DNA of 10,529 bases from Gammaproteobacteria bacterium. Lineage in GTDB: Bacteria; Pseudomonadota; Gammaproteobacteria; Xanthomonadales; Xanthomonadaceae. Numbering within the stretch: position 1 is the stretch's first letter; each line of letters opens with the position of its first letter. Under the pieces are notes generated by a model. That model ran no database searches and was not told where the DNA came from. It saw only the letters and a list, made by a program, of their open reading frames with translations. The stretch is taken from positions 1 through 10,529 of the forward strand of contig JAAZHF010000456.1 of NCBI GenBank assembly GCA_012510865.1, given 5' to 3'. Positions 1,924 to 8,870 of this stretch are shown in pieces. Made by a program: the position numbers and the translations under genes.

Positions 1924-2949
1924 ATGGCACGACACGCCGCCGAGCGCGGCAGGGGCCTGTCCATCGACAGCTGGAACCTGCCCCTGCGCCATCCCGAAGG
2001 TGGCTTCGTCGGCGACCGCGCCAGCCAGACGGCCTTCCGCCAGCTGCTCGACCAGGCGCGCCGCGAGCACGGCACCTGCCGGCGCGATCCCTTCGGGCGC
2101 ACGCCCACCGACGAACTGGGCAAGCGCGAGATCGACCTGGTGCTGGTCGGCGGCGATCCGGACGCGGCCCACGTGGTCCACCTTGCGGTCGAGGAGTACG
2201 CGCGCTCGCTGGCAGCGGGGGTGCGCACCTTCATCGCCCAGCCGGAGTGGCGCGGCGTCCGGCACATCGTGCTTGGCGGCGGCTTCCCCGGGCACGAGGC
2301 GGGCCGGCTGGCCATCCGCCGCGCCGGCCGGCTGCTGACGCTGGCCCGCACCGGCGTGCGCCTGCGCGTGCTCGGCCACGACAGCGACGAGGGTGGGCTG
2401 CTGGGCTGGGTGCAGCTGGCGCCAGCGGCCGCGCTGCGGCGCCAGGCCTTCCTCGCCGTGGACATCGGCGGCACCAACATCCGCTGCGGGATCGTCGAGC
2501 CGCGGCTCCGCCTCGACCGCGTCGGCGGCCGCGCGCGCGAGCTGGAGCACTCGCAGTGGGGCCATGCCGACGACGCGCCCGACCGCGACGGCGCGGTGCG
2601 CCGGCTGGCGGCGATGCTCAACGGCCTGTCCGCCCACGCGCGGACGCGGGGCATCGACCTCGCCCCCTTCGTCGGCGTCGCCTGCCCGGGCGAGGTGGGC
2701 GCGGACGGCCATCTGCGCAGCGGCACCCAGAACCTCCCCGGCAACTGGGAAGCCGACGGCTTCTTCCTCGCCAACGCCCTGCGCGGATGGCTGGCGCCGG
2801 TGCGGGGCCGGGCGCCGCGCGTGCTGCTGCACAACGATGCCGTGGTGCAGGGCCTGAGCGAGCGGCCGCGCATGCGCGCGCAGCGGCGCTGGGGCGTGCT
2901 CACCATCGGCACCGGGCTCGGCAACGCGTCCTACACCAACCTCGGATAG
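1924..2949 (+). CDS. ROK/actin-fold kinase-like protein with apparently circularly permuted motif order
   Basis: Predicted 341 residues, no signal peptide. ATG at 1924 follows GGAGA by a few bases. The second half looks like the N-terminal half of a ROK sugar kinase: AVDIGGTNIRCGIV (phosphate-1 loop, D180-N185), GVACPGEV (251-258), LHNDAVVQGL with D305 at the catalytic aspartate position, and TIGTGLGNASYTN (phosphate-2, from 327). It then stops at residue 341, where an ordinary ROK protein would continue for about 150 residues. The missing part seems to be at the front: GGDPDAAHVVHLAVEEYA (76-93) resembles the ROK connect-2 helix, IVLGGGFPGHE (115-125) resembles the adenosine motif, and DSDEGGLLGWVQLAP (153-167) resembles the usual ROK C-terminus. 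The ROK zinc motif CxCGxxGC and the ExGH sugar-binding motif are not visible, so substrate and even kinase activity are uncertain. The motif reading is direct; the permutation is inference. Function is unknown. Confidence 0.75.
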   Translation: MARHAAERGRGLSIDSWNLPLRHPEGGFVGDRASQTAFRQLLDQARREHGTCRRDPFGRTPTDELGKREIDLVLVGGDPDAAHVVHLAVEEYARSLAAGVRTFIAQPEWRGVRHIVLGGGFPGHEAGRLAIRRAGRLLTLARTGVRLRVLGHDSDEGGLLGWVQLAPAAALRRQAFLAVDIGGTNIRCGIVEPRLRLDRVGGRARELEHSQWGHADDAPDRDGAVRRLAAMLNGLSAHARTRGIDLAPFVGVACPGEVGADGHLRSGTQNLPGNWEADGFFLANALRGWLAPVRGRAPRVLLHNDAVVQGLSERPRMRAQRRWGVLTIGTGLGNASYTNLG

Positions 2950-3044: not shown

Positions 3045-4859
3045 ATGCCATCCAGTCCCCGCCTCCGCCTCCGTCTGCGCGCGACCGCGCTGCCCGCCTT
3101 CCTCCTGCTCGCCGCTGCCGCGGTCGCGCCCGCGGCGATCGCGCAGGAGCCGCGCGAGGTGCCGCCGCCCGCGGGCGTGGAGGCGGCGTCCGCACCCGCG
3201 GCCGCGCTGCGCGCGCTGTTCCAGGAGCACGCGGACTGGGAGGAGCGCGAGTACGGCTTCACGCGCGTGGACGGCCGCTGGCGCGCCGGCGACCGCCTGC
3301 CCTCGAACACGCCCGAGGCCTGGGAGCGCCGCGTGGCGTGGTGGGCCGGGGTGCTGGAGAGGCTCGACGCGATCCCGGCCGATGCGCTCGCGCGCGAGGA
3401 CCAGGTCGACATGGCCGTGTTCCGCGCCACCATCGCCGCCAGCCATTCCAACGCCGTGCGCCGCACCTGGGAAGCGCCGTTCAACAGCGACACTTTCTTC
3501 TGGGCCGGCTTCGCCCCGCGGCAGCCCTGGCACGAGGAAGCCGAGTGGCGCAGCTACATCGGCCGCCTGCGCGACCTGCCGCGGCACTTCGCCGAGCACA
3601 TCGACAACATGGAGCGCGGCCTGCCGCGCGGCTGGAGCGTGCCGCGGGCGTCGCTGGACAACCGCGACCGGACGATCGAGCCGTACACGCTGGAGGGGCC
3701 CGGCAACCCGCTCCTCGACGCCTTCGACGCCATCCCGCGCTCGATCCCCGAGCCGGCGCGTTCGCGCCTGCGCGAGGAGGGCCGGCAGGTCGTGCTGGAC
3801 GAGGTCGTGCCGGCCTACCGCCGGCTGCTGTCCTACATGCGCGAGGAGTACCTGCCGCGCACGCGGACCACGATCGCGGCCAGCGCGCTGCCCGACGGCG
3901 CCGCCTTCTACCGCAGCCAGATCCGCGAGTACGTCACCCGCGACATGGAGCCGGCGGAGATCCACGAGCTGGGACTCGCCGAAGTGGCGCGGATCTCCGC
4001 CGAGATGCACGAGGTGATGGCGCGCGCCGGCTTCGAGGGCAGCTTCGAGGAGTTCCTCGCCTACCTGCGCTCGGAGCCGCGGTTCTACGCGAAGACCCCG
4101 CGCGAACTGCTGTCGAACGCTGCCTGGGTGGCCAAGAAGGTCGACGGGCAGCTCAAGCACGTGCTCGGCACGCTGCCGCGCTATCGCTTCACCATCCTGC
4201 CGGTGGCCGACGACATCGCGCCCAACTACACCGCCGGCCGCGGCGGCCTGGACGCCTGCTGGTTCAACACCTACGACCTGCCGTCGCGCCCGCTGTACAA
4301 CCTGCCGGCGCTGGTGCTGCACGAGTGTTCGCCGGGCCACAGCCTGCAGGCCGCGTTGGCGCTGGAGGCGCCGGAGCGCCCCGCCTTCCGTTCAAGCACC
4401 TATTTCTCCGGCTACGGCGAGGGCTGGGCGCTGTACACCGAGTGGCTGGGCACGCAGATGGGGATCTACGAGACCCCCTACGAGGACTTCGGCCGCCTGA
4501 CCTTCGAGATGTGGCGGGCGGCGCGGCTGGTGATCGACACCGGCATCCACGAATACGGCTGGAGCCGTGAACAGGCGATCGAGTACCTCGCCGGCCACAC
4601 CGCGCTCGCGCGCCACGACATCGTCAACGAGGTCGACCGCTACATCTCCTGGCCCGGCCAGGCACTGTCGTACTACATCGGCTACCGCACCATCCGCGAC
4701 CTGCGCGCCGAGGCCGAGCGCGAACTCGGCCAGGGCTTCGACCAGAAGGCCTTCCACGACACCATCCTGCGCCTGGGTTCGGTCCCCCTGCCGGTGCTGG
4801 AAGAGGAGGTGCGCGCGTTCATCACCGCCCGCAAGCACCCCCCCGCCCCGTCCCTGTAG
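3045..4859 (+). CDS. Secreted DUF885 family protein, probable zinc metallopeptidase
   Basis: Predicted 604 residues. The N-terminus has five arginines, then a hydrophobic run (LPAFLLLAAAAVAPA) and AIA/Q at 31-34, a good Sec signal peptide, so the mature protein is periplasmic or outside the cell. The body matches the DUF885 family: NSDTFFWAGF early on, NYTAGRGGLDACWFN in the middle, HECSPGHSLQ at 426-435 and EGWALYTE at 459-466. H426, E427, H432 and E459 are the likely metal site. The motif is HExxPGHxxQ rather than classical HExxH, which is normal for DUF885. Members are often annotated as putative peptidases, but the substrate is not known to me. ATG at 3045 is preceded by AAGGGAG. An upstream open frame to 2247 overlaps the previous gene and is not used. 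The stop codon TAG lies inside a REP element. Length is normal and nothing looks broken. Confidence 0.88.
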   Translation: MPSSPRLRLRLRATALPAFLLLAAAAVAPAAIAQEPREVPPPAGVEAASAPAAALRALFQEHADWEEREYGFTRVDGRWRAGDRLPSNTPEAWERRVAWWAGVLERLDAIPADALAREDQVDMAVFRATIAASHSNAVRRTWEAPFNSDTFFWAGFAPRQPWHEEAEWRSYIGRLRDLPRHFAEHIDNMERGLPRGWSVPRASLDNRDRTIEPYTLEGPGNPLLDAFDAIPRSIPEPARSRLREEGRQVVLDEVVPAYRRLLSYMREEYLPRTRTTIAASALPDGAAFYRSQIREYVTRDMEPAEIHELGLAEVARISAEMHEVMARAGFEGSFEEFLAYLRSEPRFYAKTPRELLSNAAWVAKKVDGQLKHVLGTLPRYRFTILPVADDIAPNYTAGRGGLDACWFNTYDLPSRPLYNLPALVLHECSPGHSLQAALALEAPERPAFRSSTYFSGYGEGWALYTEWLGTQMGIYETPYEDFGRLTFEMWRAARLVIDTGIHEYGWSREQAIEYLAGHTALARHDIVNEVDRYISWPGQALSYYIGYRTIRDLRAEAERELGQGFDQKAFHDTILRLGSVPLPVLEEEVRAFITARKHPPAPSL

Positions 4860-4879
4860 GAGCGGCTACAGCCGCGAAC
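4856..4879 (+). repeat. REP/SMAG-type palindromic element (single copy)
   Basis: A GTAG tetranucleotide at 4856-4859 is followed by GA and the palindrome GCGGCT-AC-AGCCGC, ending CGAAC-like. The same 23-base core recurs at 6019-6041 and, inverted, at 6060-6082. GTAG-headed palindromes of this kind are known as SMAG/REP elements in Stenotrophomonas and relatives and are attributed to REP-associated (RAYT) transposases; no such transposase is in this window. The element fills the 36-base gap between the convergent DUF885 and BON genes, and its TAG (4857-4859) serves as the DUF885 stop codon. Confidence 0.85.
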
Positions 4880-4895
4880 CAAAGCCCCGGCAGAC

Positions 4896-5462
4896 TCAGA
4901 AGTTCCCGGACGGCCCCGACGGCTTCACGCCCGACGACGAGCCCGCCGGCGACGGATCCGCCCCGTACGTGCCGCCAGCACCCGCCGAAGCGGCGCCTGC
5001 GGTGCCCGTGGAGGAGGCCGTGCCGGCGGTCGCGCCGCCCATGTGCGGCGGCCGGCCCACGCGCAGCGCGTTCTCGACGTCGCGCACGCCGCTGCAGCCT
5101 TCGGCCAGCTCCTCGGCGAGGCGCTTCATCATCCGGTGCGGAACCGAGCCCGCGAGGCGCACCACGCCGGCGGTGACCTCGACGGTGATGTCGCCGGCGT
5201 CGAGCGAGTCGTTGTCGGCGAGGGCGTCGCAGACGTCGTCGCGGATGCGGCCGTCGTCGCGGCGGTAGCCGCGCGGCCCTACGCCGCGGTAGCCGTGGAC
5301 GGACACTCCGGAGCGGCCGGCCGCGCGGCCGAGGTCGAACTCCTCGCGCTTCTCGCCCAGCCAGTCGCGGGCCGCGCCGATGCAGCGCCCGCCCAGCTTC
5401 AGGGCGTCGCGCGCCACGTCGCGGAACTCTTCGCCGGCGCTGCCGGTGGTGGATCGGTTCAT
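4896..5462 (-). CDS. BON-domain protein
   Basis: Predicted 188 residues. The start at 5462 is chosen because GGAGG sits five bases upstream on this strand; the frame is open for a further 26 codons, but that extension lacks such a site. There is no signal peptide. Residues 1-50 are a charged, probably helical stretch (GEEFRDVARDALKLGG, DWLGEKREEFDLG), then GVGPRGYRRDDGRIRDDVCDALADN leads into one BON domain (about 70-135) with DITVEVTAGVVRLAGSV and the closing GVRDVENALRV. The last 50 residues are low-complexity Gly/Ala/Ser/Thr. BON domains are thought to bind phospholipid or membranes and occur in osmotic-stress proteins such as OsmY; OsmY is secreted, this protein seems not to be. It is convergent with DUF885 and divergent from DUF6165. 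The exact role is unknown. Confidence 0.82.
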   Translation of the reverse strand: MNRSTTGSAGEEFRDVARDALKLGGRCIGAARDWLGEKREEFDLGRAAGRSGVSVHGYRGVGPRGYRRDDGRIRDDVCDALADNDSLDAGDITVEVTAGVVRLAGSVPHRMMKRLAEELAEGCSGVRDVENALRVGRPPHMGGATAGTASSTGTAGAASAGAGGTYGADPSPAGSSSGVKPSGPSGNF

Positions 5463-5614
5463 GCCTGCCTCCGTGGGGTGGTCGGGCGCGTGCGCCCACT
5501 GGCGGCCAGTGTCGGCGCTGGCATGTTCAAGCGGCGTCATGCCGGCCGGGTCGGCGGGCGGCCACGCGGCGGGGCGGGCAGGGCGGGTACCATTGCGGCC
5601 CGAAGGAGGCGTCC
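5463..5614. promoter_or_regulatory. Divergent intergenic region between BON and DUF6165 genes
   Basis: These 152 bases must carry the start signals of two divergent genes. On the plus strand, GGG then TACCAT (5588-5593) is a candidate -10 box 21 bases before the DUF6165 start, followed by GAAGGAGG as ribosome site. On the minus strand, only the GGAGG before the BON start is clear. Repeated GGCGGG runs at about 5554-5587 are GC-rich filler as far as I can see. No convincing -35 boxes or operators were recognised. Confidence 0.35.
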
Positions 5615-6007
5615 ATGCAGACCATTTCAGTCCCGGTGTCCGTCGGCGAGCTTGCCGACAAGATCTCCATCCTGCACATCAAGTCCGAGCGCATCGGGGA
5701 TCCCGCCAAGCGCGCGCACGTCGAGGTCGAACTCGCCGGCCTGCGCCCGATCTGGGACGGGCTCGTGGCCGGGGCCCCGGACCTTGCCGGCTGGTACGAC
5801 CGCCTCAAGGCGGTGAACGAGCGGATGTGGGACGTGCAGGACGGCCTGCGCGCGAAGGAGGCGGCGCAGGAGTTCGACGACGGATTCATCCAGCTCGCGC
5901 GCGCGGTGGCCGTGCGCAACGGCGAGCGGGTGGCGATCAAGAACGAGATCAACCGCATGTCCGGCTCTGCCTTCATCGAAGAGAAGCAGTACCAGGCCGG
6001 CAGCTGA
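5615..6007 (+). CDS. DUF6165 family protein
   Basis: Predicted 130 residues, soluble, no signal peptide or membrane segment. ATG at 5615 follows a strong GGAGG. The N-terminus ISVPVSVGELADKISILHIKSERIGDPAKRAHVEVEL (residues 4-40, split here only by reading) is the signature of DUF6165, and the C-terminal part FDDGFIQLARAVAVRN followed by ERVAIKNEINRM is the second conserved block. The protein is predicted largely helical with many charged residues. I know of no established function; the family is small and conserved among proteobacteria. The gene appears to be transcribed alone: its upstream neighbour is divergent and a long hairpin follows its stop. Complete and ordinary in composition. Confidence 0.85.
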   Translation: MQTISVPVSVGELADKISILHIKSERIGDPAKRAHVEVELAGLRPIWDGLVAGAPDLAGWYDRLKAVNERMWDVQDGLRAKEAAQEFDDGFIQLARAVAVRNGERVAIKNEINRMSGSAFIEEKQYQAGS

Positions 6008-6014
6008 TCCCGAC

Positions 6015-6086
6015 CCCTGTAGGAGCGGCTACAGCCGCGAACGGGCCTGCCAACGGCTTTTCGCGGCTGTAGCCGCTCCTGCAGGG
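6015..6086. terminator. Inverted pair of REP/SMAG elements forming a two-way terminator-like hairpin
   Basis: Arms 6015-6041 and 6060-6086 are 27-base inverted repeats with one mismatch (T6020 opposite C6082-side position) and an 18-base loop. Each arm is a copy of the GTAG-headed REP core seen at 4856-4879; in the inverted copy GTAG has become GCAG. The hairpin fills almost all of the 82 bases between the stop codons of DUF6165 (+, ending 6007) and the M28 peptidase (-, ending 6090). A structure this long would form in RNA from either strand, so a bidirectional terminator or mRNA 3'-end stabiliser is likely. There is no long U-run, so it is not a textbook intrinsic terminator. Confidence 0.75.
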
Positions 6087-6089
6087 TGC

Positions 6090-7682
6090 TCAGCGGCGTT
6101 CGAGGAGTGCCTTGCGGGGCATGGGTTCGTAGCGCATGGCGGCGTGGTACGCGAACGAGGCGACGATCGCCGCGGCCTGCTTCAGGTCCTCCGGTTCCAC
6201 GTGGTCCCAGGTGTCCAGGTGGGTGTGGTGGACGTTGGTGAAGTAGTCCAGCCGGTCCTGGATGAACTGGAAGCCCGGAAGGCCGACGCGGTCGAAGGCG
6301 ATGTGGTCGGTGCTGCCGGTGTTGCGCGTGGCCACCGTCGTGGCGCCGACGTCGTGGAAGGGTTCCAGCCAGGCCTTGAAGATCGGCATCGCCGCCAGGT
6401 TCTCCTGGGCGTAGATGCCGCGGATGCGGCCCGAGCCGTTGTCCATGTTGAAGTAGACCGAGAAGCGCTCGTAGTCGGGGGTCCTGCGCAGCGGACCGGT
6501 GGGCTCGCGCAGCGAGGCCGGCAGCGCCTTCTGCGCGGGATCGGTCGGCTCCGGATACGCCGCGAACCTGCGCGCGACGTAGTCCTGCGAACCCACCAGG
6601 CCCTGCTCTTCGCCGCTCCACAGGGCGACGCGGATCGTGCGCTCCGGGCGCGCGCCCACCGCCTTCAGGATGCGCATGGCCTCCATCATCACCGCCACGC
6701 CGGCGGCGTTGTCGGCGGCGCCGGTGCCGGTGTGCCAGGAGTCCAGGTGCGCGCCGATCATCACGATTTCGGCGGCCTTGCGGCCGCGACCCGGGATCTC
6801 GGCGATGGTGTTGTAGCCGGGCCGGTCGGCCTCGTCGGTGAAGCGGGCATCGACGTTGCCGCGCAGGCGCACGGCCTGCCCGGCCTCGAGCGCGCGCACC
6901 AGCGGGTTGAAGTGCTCGGCGATCATCGCCAGCTCCGGGATGCCCACCGGCTCGCCCGCCTTGCGCGAGCCGCCGCCGGCGACGCGGATGATGCCGTTGT
7001 CCCAGCTGCTGATGCTGATCGCGGCCAGCGCGCCTTCCTCGGCGAAGAAGGCGTTCACGGCACGGGTGAGCTCCTGGCGCTCGGCGTACTCCTTGACCCG
7101 CTTGGCGCGATCGGCGGCGGCGGACTTCGGTACCGTGAACTGCTGCAGGCCTTCCAGCGAGGTGGCGTCGTGGCGGTGCGAGTCCGCCTCGGTGCCGCGC
7201 TTGTATTCGCGCGCCTCGCCCAGCAGCAGGACCTTGCCGCCGAGCGTGCCGCGGTACTTCCCGATGTCGGCCAGCGTCTTGATGTCGACCTTCACCAGTT
7301 CGCCCTCGACCGGGCCGTCGGTCCCAGGCGTCCAGGCCTTGGGCAGGGCGTGCAGCGGCTGCACGCGTCCGCCCAGCATCTCGACGCTGGCGGCGCTGAA
7401 CTCCCAGCCGCGGCCGAAGTCGGCGAAGGCGTCGTCGTGGACGTTGGCCAGGCCCCATTCCTCGAACTTCGCGCGCGTCCAGGCGTTGGCCTCGCCCATC
7501 TGCGGCGAGTTGGTCAGGCGCGGGCCGATGGTCTCGGTCAGGTGGCTCAAGGTCGCCATCACCTGGGAGTTGTGGAAGGCCTCCTGCCGGATGCGGCTGA
7601 CCATGTCGAGGTCGACCGGTTCCCGTGCCACGGCCAGGCCGGCGAAGGCCAGGCCGGCCACCATCACGCAACGCTTCAACAT
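6090..7682 (-). CDS. Secreted M28 family zinc peptidase with PA-type insert
   Basis: Predicted 530 residues. MLKRCVMVAGLAFAGLAVA/REP is a Sec signal peptide with cleavage near residue 19. The first 300 residues hold an N-terminal segment (MATLSHLTETIGPRLTNSP) and a PA-like region (about 110-290, e.g. GKVLLLGEARE). The M28 domain follows with its full metal set: H312 in GAHLDSWHTGTG, D324 in AADNAAG, the catalytic glutamate E358 and ligand E359 in WSGEEQGLVGS, D414 in NMDNGSG, and H488 in HHTHLDTWD. Enzymes of this kind are di-zinc aminopeptidases or carboxypeptidases acting in the periplasm or outside the cell; the exact specificity cannot be read from sequence. ATG at 7682 is preceded by GGGGAAG. 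The gene lies 150 bases downstream of the amidohydrolase gene on the same strand and may have its own promoter. Nothing is missing. Confidence 0.93.
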   Translation of the reverse strand: MLKRCVMVAGLAFAGLAVAREPVDLDMVSRIRQEAFHNSQVMATLSHLTETIGPRLTNSPQMGEANAWTRAKFEEWGLANVHDDAFADFGRGWEFSAASVEMLGGRVQPLHALPKAWTPGTDGPVEGELVKVDIKTLADIGKYRGTLGGKVLLLGEAREYKRGTEADSHRHDATSLEGLQQFTVPKSAAADRAKRVKEYAERQELTRAVNAFFAEEGALAAISISSWDNGIIRVAGGGSRKAGEPVGIPELAMIAEHFNPLVRALEAGQAVRLRGNVDARFTDEADRPGYNTIAEIPGRGRKAAEIVMIGAHLDSWHTGTGAADNAAGVAVMMEAMRILKAVGARPERTIRVALWSGEEQGLVGSQDYVARRFAAYPEPTDPAQKALPASLREPTGPLRRTPDYERFSVYFNMDNGSGRIRGIYAQENLAAMPIFKAWLEPFHDVGATTVATRNTGSTDHIAFDRVGLPGFQFIQDRLDYFTNVHHTHLDTWDHVEPEDLKQAAAIVASFAYHAAMRYEPMPRKALLERR

Positions 7683-7727
7683 GCTCTGTCTTCCCCGGCG
7701 CCGGAGGGCGGCGCATGCAGACCCACG

Positions 7728-7733
7728 ACTCTA
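7728..7733 (-). promoter_or_regulatory. Possible -10 box for the M28 peptidase gene
   Basis: Read on the minus strand, GGC then TAGAGT then CG lies 45 bases before the peptidase ATG. It matches the GGC-TAGCGT-CG found before the ROK-like gene and fits the relaxed TAnnnT box seen at xanthomonad promoters. No clear -35 box is placed 16-19 bases upstream. The rest of 7683-7832 shows nothing I recognise. Confidence 0.3.
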
Positions 7734-7832
7734 GCCGCCGCCTGCCGGTCGATCCCAGGCCGTTGGTCACGGGCGGCACGGGCAGCAGGTGCCTGGCCGG
7801 CCCGGGTGCATCGCCAGCGCGAGCGGCGCGCC

Positions 7833-8870
7833 TCAGCCCGGCGCCTGCTCCGCGAACGCCTGCAGCACGCCGGCCACGTTCCCGCCGATCTCCCGCACCG
7901 CGTAGCCGCCTTCCTGGACCAGCACGGTCGGCAGGCGCAGCGCGGCCAGCCGGGCGCCGATCTGCGGGAAGCGCTCGGCGCAGAGCCGGAACGAGCTGAT
8001 CGGATCGCCCTCGAAGATGTCGACGCCCAGCGACACCACCAGCGCGTCGGGCGCGTAGCCGGTGATGGCCTGCAGCGCCGTGTCCAGCGCGGCCGACCAG
8101 CCGGTCCAGCCGGTGCCGCGCGGCAGCGGCAGGTTGAGCGTGAAGCCCGCGCCCGCGCCGGCGCCGCGCTCGTCGGCGTAGCCGAGGAACCAGGGGTACT
8201 CGGTCTCCGGGCTGCCGTTGATGGACACGAACAGCACGTCGTCGCGGTCCCAGAAGATGTCCTGGGTGCCGTTGCCGTGGTGGTAGTCCACGTCCAGCAG
8301 CGCCACCCGGCGCAGGCCGCGGTCGCGCAGCAGCTGCGCCGCCAGCGCGGCGTTGTTGAGGAAGCAGTAGCCGCCGTAGCTGCCGCGCGCGGCGTGGTGG
8401 CCCGGCGGACGGCACAGCGCGTAGGCCGCGGCCTCGCCCTCGGCCACCAGCGCGGCGGCCGTCAGCGCGCACCGGGCCGACGCGAACGCCGCGTCCCATG
8501 TGCCGGCCACGATCGGCGTGCCGGCATCGAAGGCGTAATAGCCCATCGCGCCATGGATGCCGGCCGGCACCCGGTCGCGGCGCAGGCCGCGCGCGGGGAA
8601 ACCACCGGGCAGCATGAAACCGTCGCGACCGTCGTCCTGCCAGCGCGACCACGCCGTGCGCAGGAACGCGACGAAGCCGGCGTCGTGCACGCGCAGCAGC
8701 GCATCGATGCCGAAGTCGCGCGGCTCGCACAGCGCATGGCCGGCCGCGACCAGGGCCTCGCGGATGTAGTCCGCGCGTGCCGGGCACTCGTAGCAGGGCA
8801 CCAGCTCGCCGCGGTGCAGCTCCATGCCGCCGTCGTGGCCGAGGTGGAGAGGGGAATGGACGATCTTCAT
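7833..8870 (-). CDS. Acetylpolyamine amidohydrolase (histone deacetylase superfamily)
   Basis: Predicted 345 residues, cytoplasmic, no signal peptide. The histone deacetylase fold is clear: CRPPGHHA with H158 and H159 (general acid/base), GGYCFLNNAA (166-175), LLDVDYHHGNGTQDIFW with zinc ligands D195 and H197, SLGVDIFEGDPIS with zinc ligand D284, and EGGYAV with the transition-state tyrosine Y323. As far as I remember these numbers are the same as in the Mycoplana ramosa acetylpolyamine amidohydrolase, and the 345-residue length, FTPC-like start region (GELVPCYECPARADYI) and YPWFLGYADERG also fit that subgroup rather than acetoin-utilisation proteins. It would remove acetyl groups from acetylputrescine, acetylcadaverine or similar amines for polyamine reuse. 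The ATG at 8870 has no clear ribosome-binding sequence, but no better start exists in frame. Divergent from the methyltransferase gene. Confidence 0.9.
   Translation of the reverse strand: MKIVHSPLHLGHDGGMELHRGELVPCYECPARADYIREALVAAGHALCEPRDFGIDALLRVHDAGFVAFLRTAWSRWQDDGRDGFMLPGGFPARGLRRDRVPAGIHGAMGYYAFDAGTPIVAGTWDAAFASARCALTAAALVAEGEAAAYALCRPPGHHAARGSYGGYCFLNNAALAAQLLRDRGLRRVALLDVDYHHGNGTQDIFWDRDDVLFVSINGSPETEYPWFLGYADERGAGAGAGFTLNLPLPRGTGWTGWSAALDTALQAITGYAPDALVVSLGVDIFEGDPISSFRLCAERFPQIGARLAALRLPTVLVQEGGYAVREIGGNVAGVLQAFAEQAPG

Follow-up and report, generated by a model that had tools for sequence, protein, structure and literature searches.

Background

Actin-fold kinases work through a hinge between two domains, and the order of the segments along the chain is normally treated as fixed. 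Among the described members, the ROK glucokinases (PF00480; the Streptomyces griseus enzyme of structure 3vgk; TIGR00744) are the closest to the gene considered here, an open reading frame (ORF) of 341 codons at positions 1924-2949 of the forward strand of a stretch of 10,529 nucleotides (contig JAAZHF010000456.1 of assembly GCA_012510865.1, Gammaproteobacteria bacterium, Xanthomonadaceae), which is hereafter referred to in its full length as the window. Its product and relatives share with the ROK glucokinases both actin-fold domains, the phosphate-1 motif, the HND aspartate, the phosphate-2 motif, the GGG adenosine motif and NLPG-x-W; they differ in a swapped segment order, in the lack of the zinc motif and of the E-x-GH motif and in a weak sequence score. 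Its departure from the segment order of the family and the absence of both these motifs set the protein apart from canonical ROK members. The polyphosphate/ATP glucomannokinase (1woq) and the polyphosphate glucokinase (NF045942), unlike the family described here, keep the canonical order.

The gene is likely to encode a naturally circularly permuted ROK-type sugar kinase, as a sequence-only reading of the window had proposed. No earlier report of a permuted ROK or actin-fold kinase was found in the literature searched, which was mostly without subscription papers; the accessible part of PMC1079889 says in general terms that circular permutation may connect groups of kinase folds, with no mention of ROK.

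Circular permutation of the ROK fold

The ORF begins with ATG, reads cleanly and ends at a stop codon eight residues past phosphate-2, and all the motifs cited in the sequence-only reading were found at the residues given there. Along the 341 residues these follow one another as the adenosine motif IVLGGG (residues 115-120; window 2266-2283), the terminal ROK segment DSDEGGLLG (153-161; 2380-2406), phosphate-1 DIGGTN (180-185; 2461-2478, meeting D-x-GG-T at 180-184), HNDA with the catalytic aspartate (303-306; 2830-2841) and phosphate-2 TIGTGLG (327-333; 2902-2922), after which only the C-terminus remains. The first half of the protein (residues 1-174; 1924-2445) corresponds to the C-terminal half of a canonical ROK kinase and the second (175-341; 2446-2946) to its N-terminal half. 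These two are called the N-half and the C-half below, and all the features are on the forward strand. The proposed permuted order was borne out by a rotation test, by profile matches at opposite ends of the ROK models and by structural matches of both halves.

In the rotation test, the profile of the family was aligned to 32 canonical ROKs (26 + 6) before and after an in-silico rotation at residue 171. The native order scored 80.0 with one half aligned, and rotation raised the score to 112.6, with the alignment running through the whole ROK profile (286 columns; P 1.7e-15). The C-half joined to a shuffled N-half scored 77.3-80.1 over 20 shuffles, and the canonical ROK set behaved in the opposite manner, with 263.5 in native order and 139.5 when rotated. 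The canonical sets comprised 16 of 30 fetched loci in a hidden Markov model (HMM) rotation scan, 26 of 30 in the other comparisons and 26 or 26 + 6 in the main rotation test.

Profile matches from two independent libraries place the two halves in the same swapped manner, if only weakly for the window protein. The Pfam ROK profile matched residues 33-164 of the window protein with its positions 179-289 (E 0.11, 12.4 bits), and the NCBIfam BglK model matched residues 178-339 with positions 5-139 (E 4.5e-4, far below the model cut-off). Nine relatives were scanned with Pfam, five of which pass the gathering score of 22.9. The best ROK stretch lies in the C-half in seven (within profile positions 2-148; for example, residues 189-358 of L066 match 2-148) and in the N-half in P0059 (profile 179-290), and one relative (P0040) has no Pfam ROK match at E<=0.01. 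NCBIfam models matched the C-half in five of the seven permuted members scanned, L066 included, and the N-half in two (L132, residues 61-177 on BglK 179-283; L066, on NanK 217-286), with no match in P0059. A canonical ROK control from Pseudomonadota (L159) was matched straight through, from 2 to 291. A phmmer search of the protein against PDB sequences gave no matches at E<=1.

The AlphaFold model of the window protein is confident (predicted local distance difference test, pLDDT, 90.6; predicted template modelling score, pTM, 0.88). Its C-half fits residues 2-142 of 3vgk and the N-half, folded alone, fits 141-306, so that the halves match opposite ends of the ROK structure and meet at the same residue, 141/142. 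Both halves of that structure, with both actin-like domains, are therefore present in the predicted models. The top seven Foldseek matches were two-unit hexokinases at 12-15% identity, since the join between their units reproduces the permuted segment order; the human enzymes HK1 and HK2 differ in that each has two complete kinase units, both canonically ordered, and give a root-mean-square deviation (rmsd) above 30. Model residues 19-316 lie on 257-668 of 2nzt, that is, on the second half of unit one and the first half of unit two, with an rmsd of 33.4. The value is high because the two matched segments lie in different units; each segment fits on its own, and the two do not superpose as a single body.

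Taken together, these results indicate that the ROK fold is almost certainly circularly permuted in this protein. In the layout supported by computation, the chain would begin in the second actin-fold domain, immediately ahead of strand beta-3, run through the adenosine side, pass by a short linker (about residues 168-174) into the canonical ROK N-terminus and finish behind beta-2 of that second domain. Relative to a canonical ROK, the cut would thus fall between beta-2 and beta-3, near 3vgk 141/142, with the old termini joined. Such an order probably arose once, by tandem duplication and trimming.

Several results weigh against this reading. The Pfam score of the window protein is below the ROK cut-off (12.4 versus 22.9), and no NCBIfam match of a permuted member reaches the cut-off of its model. 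With the six nearest canonical ROKs only, the rotation test gave 81.2 in native order versus 80.0 when rotated at 171, the C-half alone being aligned both ways; the early HMM scan with 16 canonical ROKs was uninformative (9.5 bits native, 9.7 for the best rotation), and hhalign of the N-half alone leaves residues 1-63 uncovered. The structural evidence comes from a predicted model rather than a solved structure. As regards the kinase function, an ordinary glucokinase, its gene divided between two contigs, is encoded in the genome as well; a search of this genome for canonical PF00480 gave no match. The poor ROK scores and the vague annotation of the members follow from the permuted order.

Distribution and selection

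In a protein search, 7289 of 8000 scored candidates matched at E<=1e-3; among 120 matches listed, the alignment covers 96-100% of the query in 119 and 49% in the remaining one. The members carry the database label 'ROK family protein'. A genome scan gave 556 relatives among 596 pattern matches, and the best 80 of the 556, which were analysed, include Luteimonas, Lysobacter, Pseudoxanthomonas and their kin at 60-87% identity and Variovorax, Xenophilus, Bradyrhizobium and others at 44-51%. Plasmid records with a match number 205, of which 111 are from Rhizobium and 79 from Sinorhizobium. The presence is patchy, with 26 of 247 sampled genomes of the family (including two weak half-only matches, G225 and G259) and 28 of 398 of the phylum (including six weak C-half-only matches). 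All six of these last loci hold a canonical-order ROK reading, and a canonical ROK search on a smaller sample matched at three of them. One of the six is L159, which matches only the C-half positions of the permuted profile and differs from the permuted family in its standard order and in the presence of E-x-GH and of a CGCG..GC zinc motif. At this locus the canonical ROK frame (1459-2436) overlaps the end of a neighbouring frame (2-1513) which resembles, and which we take to be, glycogen synthase.

Conservation was assessed in 115 sequences, namely the window, the 80 genome-contig loci just described (46 of the Bradyrhizobium group, with L112 and L115 from one strain), 12 of 15 plasmid loci and 22 further genome loci. 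Many of these are close relatives and hence not independent of one another, and the 22 loci were chosen partly by the presence of NLPG and GTG motifs, which bears on the counts for those motifs. The order of GGG, phosphate-1 and phosphate-2 is kept in 114 of the 115 and is thus not peculiar to this copy. The swapped order is common to relatives in Lysobacteraceae, Burkholderiales, Bradyrhizobium and Rhizobiaceae, and the permutation is therefore no accident of this one locus.

The 18 Lysobacteraceae sequences group as a single clade, with support 1.0, in a tree of 76 members rooted at its midpoint. The ratio of nonsynonymous to synonymous substitution rates against the two nearest named relatives (L048 and L049) is about 0.19 and about 0.27, and in comparisons with L048, L049 and L050 both halves show more synonymous than amino-acid change; both halves are under purifying selection. 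In the related genomes G007, G001 and G158 the copies of the permuted kinase gene are broken, being split into pieces, spread over different frames or interrupted by a stop.

Active site and likely activity

HND is found in all 115 sequences and GTG-x-GN in 114; one database relative, P0112, reads HNGA instead of HNDA. Residues G118-G120 of the adenosine motif, D155, L159 and G161 of the terminal segment, D180, G182, G183 and N185 of phosphate-1 and T327 and G329-G333 of phosphate-2 are each kept in at least 97% of the 115. Asp305 in HNDA is taken here as the catalytic aspartate, with its role as in ROK kinases. The protein was earlier described as lacking the zinc and sugar-binding motifs. 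This holds for the zinc motif C-x-CG-x2-GC and for the sugar motif (G)E-x-GH, each found in none of the 115, and fails for NLPG-x-W, present in 103 of them and in the window protein as NLPGNW (residues 270-275; 2731-2748), the sugar-site motif of ROKs.

Since the zinc loop and E-x-GH are gone, the sugar pocket would be remodelled. One conserved patch surrounds GDRAS (residues 30-34; 2011-2025; GD.AS in 101 of 115), where F28, G30, D31 and A33 are each kept in at least 97% and which would lie near the position at which ROKs carry the zinc/GC-x-E segment; a second comprises W212, H214, P219 and R221. The two patches may shape the changed pocket. The fold would close over ATP and a hexose as in other ROK kinases, with Asp305 as the putative base and ATP bound by the GTG and GGG loops. 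The protein is probably an active hexose kinase that uses ATP. More tentatively, its substrate may be glucose or a solute derived from glucose, and in rhizobia and Burkholderiales it might serve trehalose or osmoprotectant metabolism under stress.

Genomic context

Neighbour genes were called by a simple GC-position rule rather than a gene finder, and many of the loci compared are closely related and not independent, L112 and L115 being from the same strain. Loci in Burkholderiales have a glycine-betaine-type transporter (OpuAC and permease) nearby in 14 of 15 cases and a PLD-family (cardiolipin-synthase-like) protein in 12 of 15. At three Burkholderiales loci (L082:4228-5781, L101:4289-5830 and L120:3473-5005) an OpuAC substrate-binding domain and an ATP-binding cassette (ABC) permease are fused in a single chain near the kinase. 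The plasmid loci, mostly rhizobial, have an OtsB homologue nearby in 8 of 15, with an annotated divergent trehalose phosphatase in five, and an M42 peptidase in 2 of 15; one S. meliloti pSymB record labels the divergent neighbour as an M42 peptidase of the osmoprotectant NAGGN system. An alpha-amylase gene in pieces lies near the plasmid copy of Bradyrhizobium sp. 195 (L128:12606-13589).

The pattern GGAAC-N16/17-CGTT, expected by chance about 0.01 times per 200 bases, occurs upstream on the strand of the gene in 10 of the 15 plasmid loci (N16 in six, N17 in four), 56-108 bases before the start used, which for L199 is the match start only. For EcfG1 of R. etli, PMC3892343 gives the motif as GGAAC-N16-CGTT; such a promoter would place a gene in the EcfG/RpoE2 general stress regulon, a question that concerns the rhizobial members and not the genus of the window. 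The accessible text of PMC11387232 names a ROK-family regulator, SMa2004, which was not identified with the pSymB kinase gene, and ROK or glucokinase is not mentioned in the accessible text of PMC6180224.

Trehalose phosphatase was found in all 24 family genomes with the kinase gene versus 120 of 223 without it (hypergeometric 1e-6 by genome and 0.018 by genus, with kinship as a confounder). Here the genomes with broken copies G001 and G158 were counted as having the gene and those with weak half-only matches (G225, G259) as lacking it, and the two 247-genome samples behind the count were taken as identical.

Other observations speak against a link to stress. The EcfG motif is missing upstream in 5 of the 15 plasmid loci and in all 80 genome-contig loci, and in the 46 Bradyrhizobium loci among the latter, two further patterns likewise gave none. 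Four tested neighbours (OtsB, M42 peptidase, OpuAC and the PLD-family protein) were found in none of 17 Lysobacteraceae loci, and hence the stress reading is not based on the window's own kin; no neighbour family was shared by more than two loci among 43 neighbour ORFs of 11 Lysobacteraceae loci. The arguments for and against an osmotic or general stress role outside Lysobacteraceae are about evenly balanced.

In the window itself, the C-terminal part of a ligase-associated DEXH helicase and then the PdeM phosphoesterase (47-1871) lie directly upstream on the same strand, with the kinase gene beginning 52 bases after pdeM. The pdeM-kinase arrangement also occurs in near Luteimonas (L003, L004 and L049), the only places where the window's own neighbours recur. 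Downstream (3045-8870) are DUF885, BON-domain (reverse strand), DUF6165, M28 peptidase (reverse strand) and histone-deacetylase-fold (reverse strand) proteins.

Alternative explanations

The family could form a separate, anciently permuted lineage of actin-fold kinases in which the substrate pocket has been rebuilt for a new substrate (an osmoprotectant sugar, for instance, such as one derived from trehalose) and which the stress response of Proteobacteria would deploy. This is conceivable and on balance unlikely; if true, it would mean that chain ends placed within the second domain are compatible with the two-domain ASKHA clamp.

An improbable alternative accepts the permuted fold and makes the protein a sensor or pseudokinase, which would control stress functions on binding a sugar or nucleotide, without making a sugar phosphate. 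ROK relatives do include repressors, such as Lmo0178 and Mlc, and the loss of the zinc and E-x-GH motifs throughout the 115, the variable N-terminal tails and the stress-gene surroundings in some lineages would suit such a role; however, no Pfam DNA-binding domain was found in the window protein or the nine relatives, and the catalytic landmarks are at or near invariance, with HND kept throughout.

More improbable still is a fusion of half-domains from different actin-fold proteins, such as a pantothenate kinase or hexokinase with a ROK, in place of a permuted ROK gene, as the best structural match of each half is a ROK, ROK family profiles match both halves and the two meet at one and the same residue of 3vgk. 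A local rearrangement or assembly error has a negligible probability even though the assembly is fragmented (469 contigs, 91% complete), being refuted by homologues from other genera, on complete chromosomes and plasmids, that show the same full-length order and by the synteny kept in near Luteimonas.

Conclusion

The window gene appears to encode a permuted kinase descended from the ROK family, which probably works like the ROK kinases. A conserved natural permutation of this kind would show that the hinge works with the termini inside domain two, and the family would offer a natural control for studies of domain closure. A stress-linked sugar kinase in rhizobia would be directly testable by genetics.
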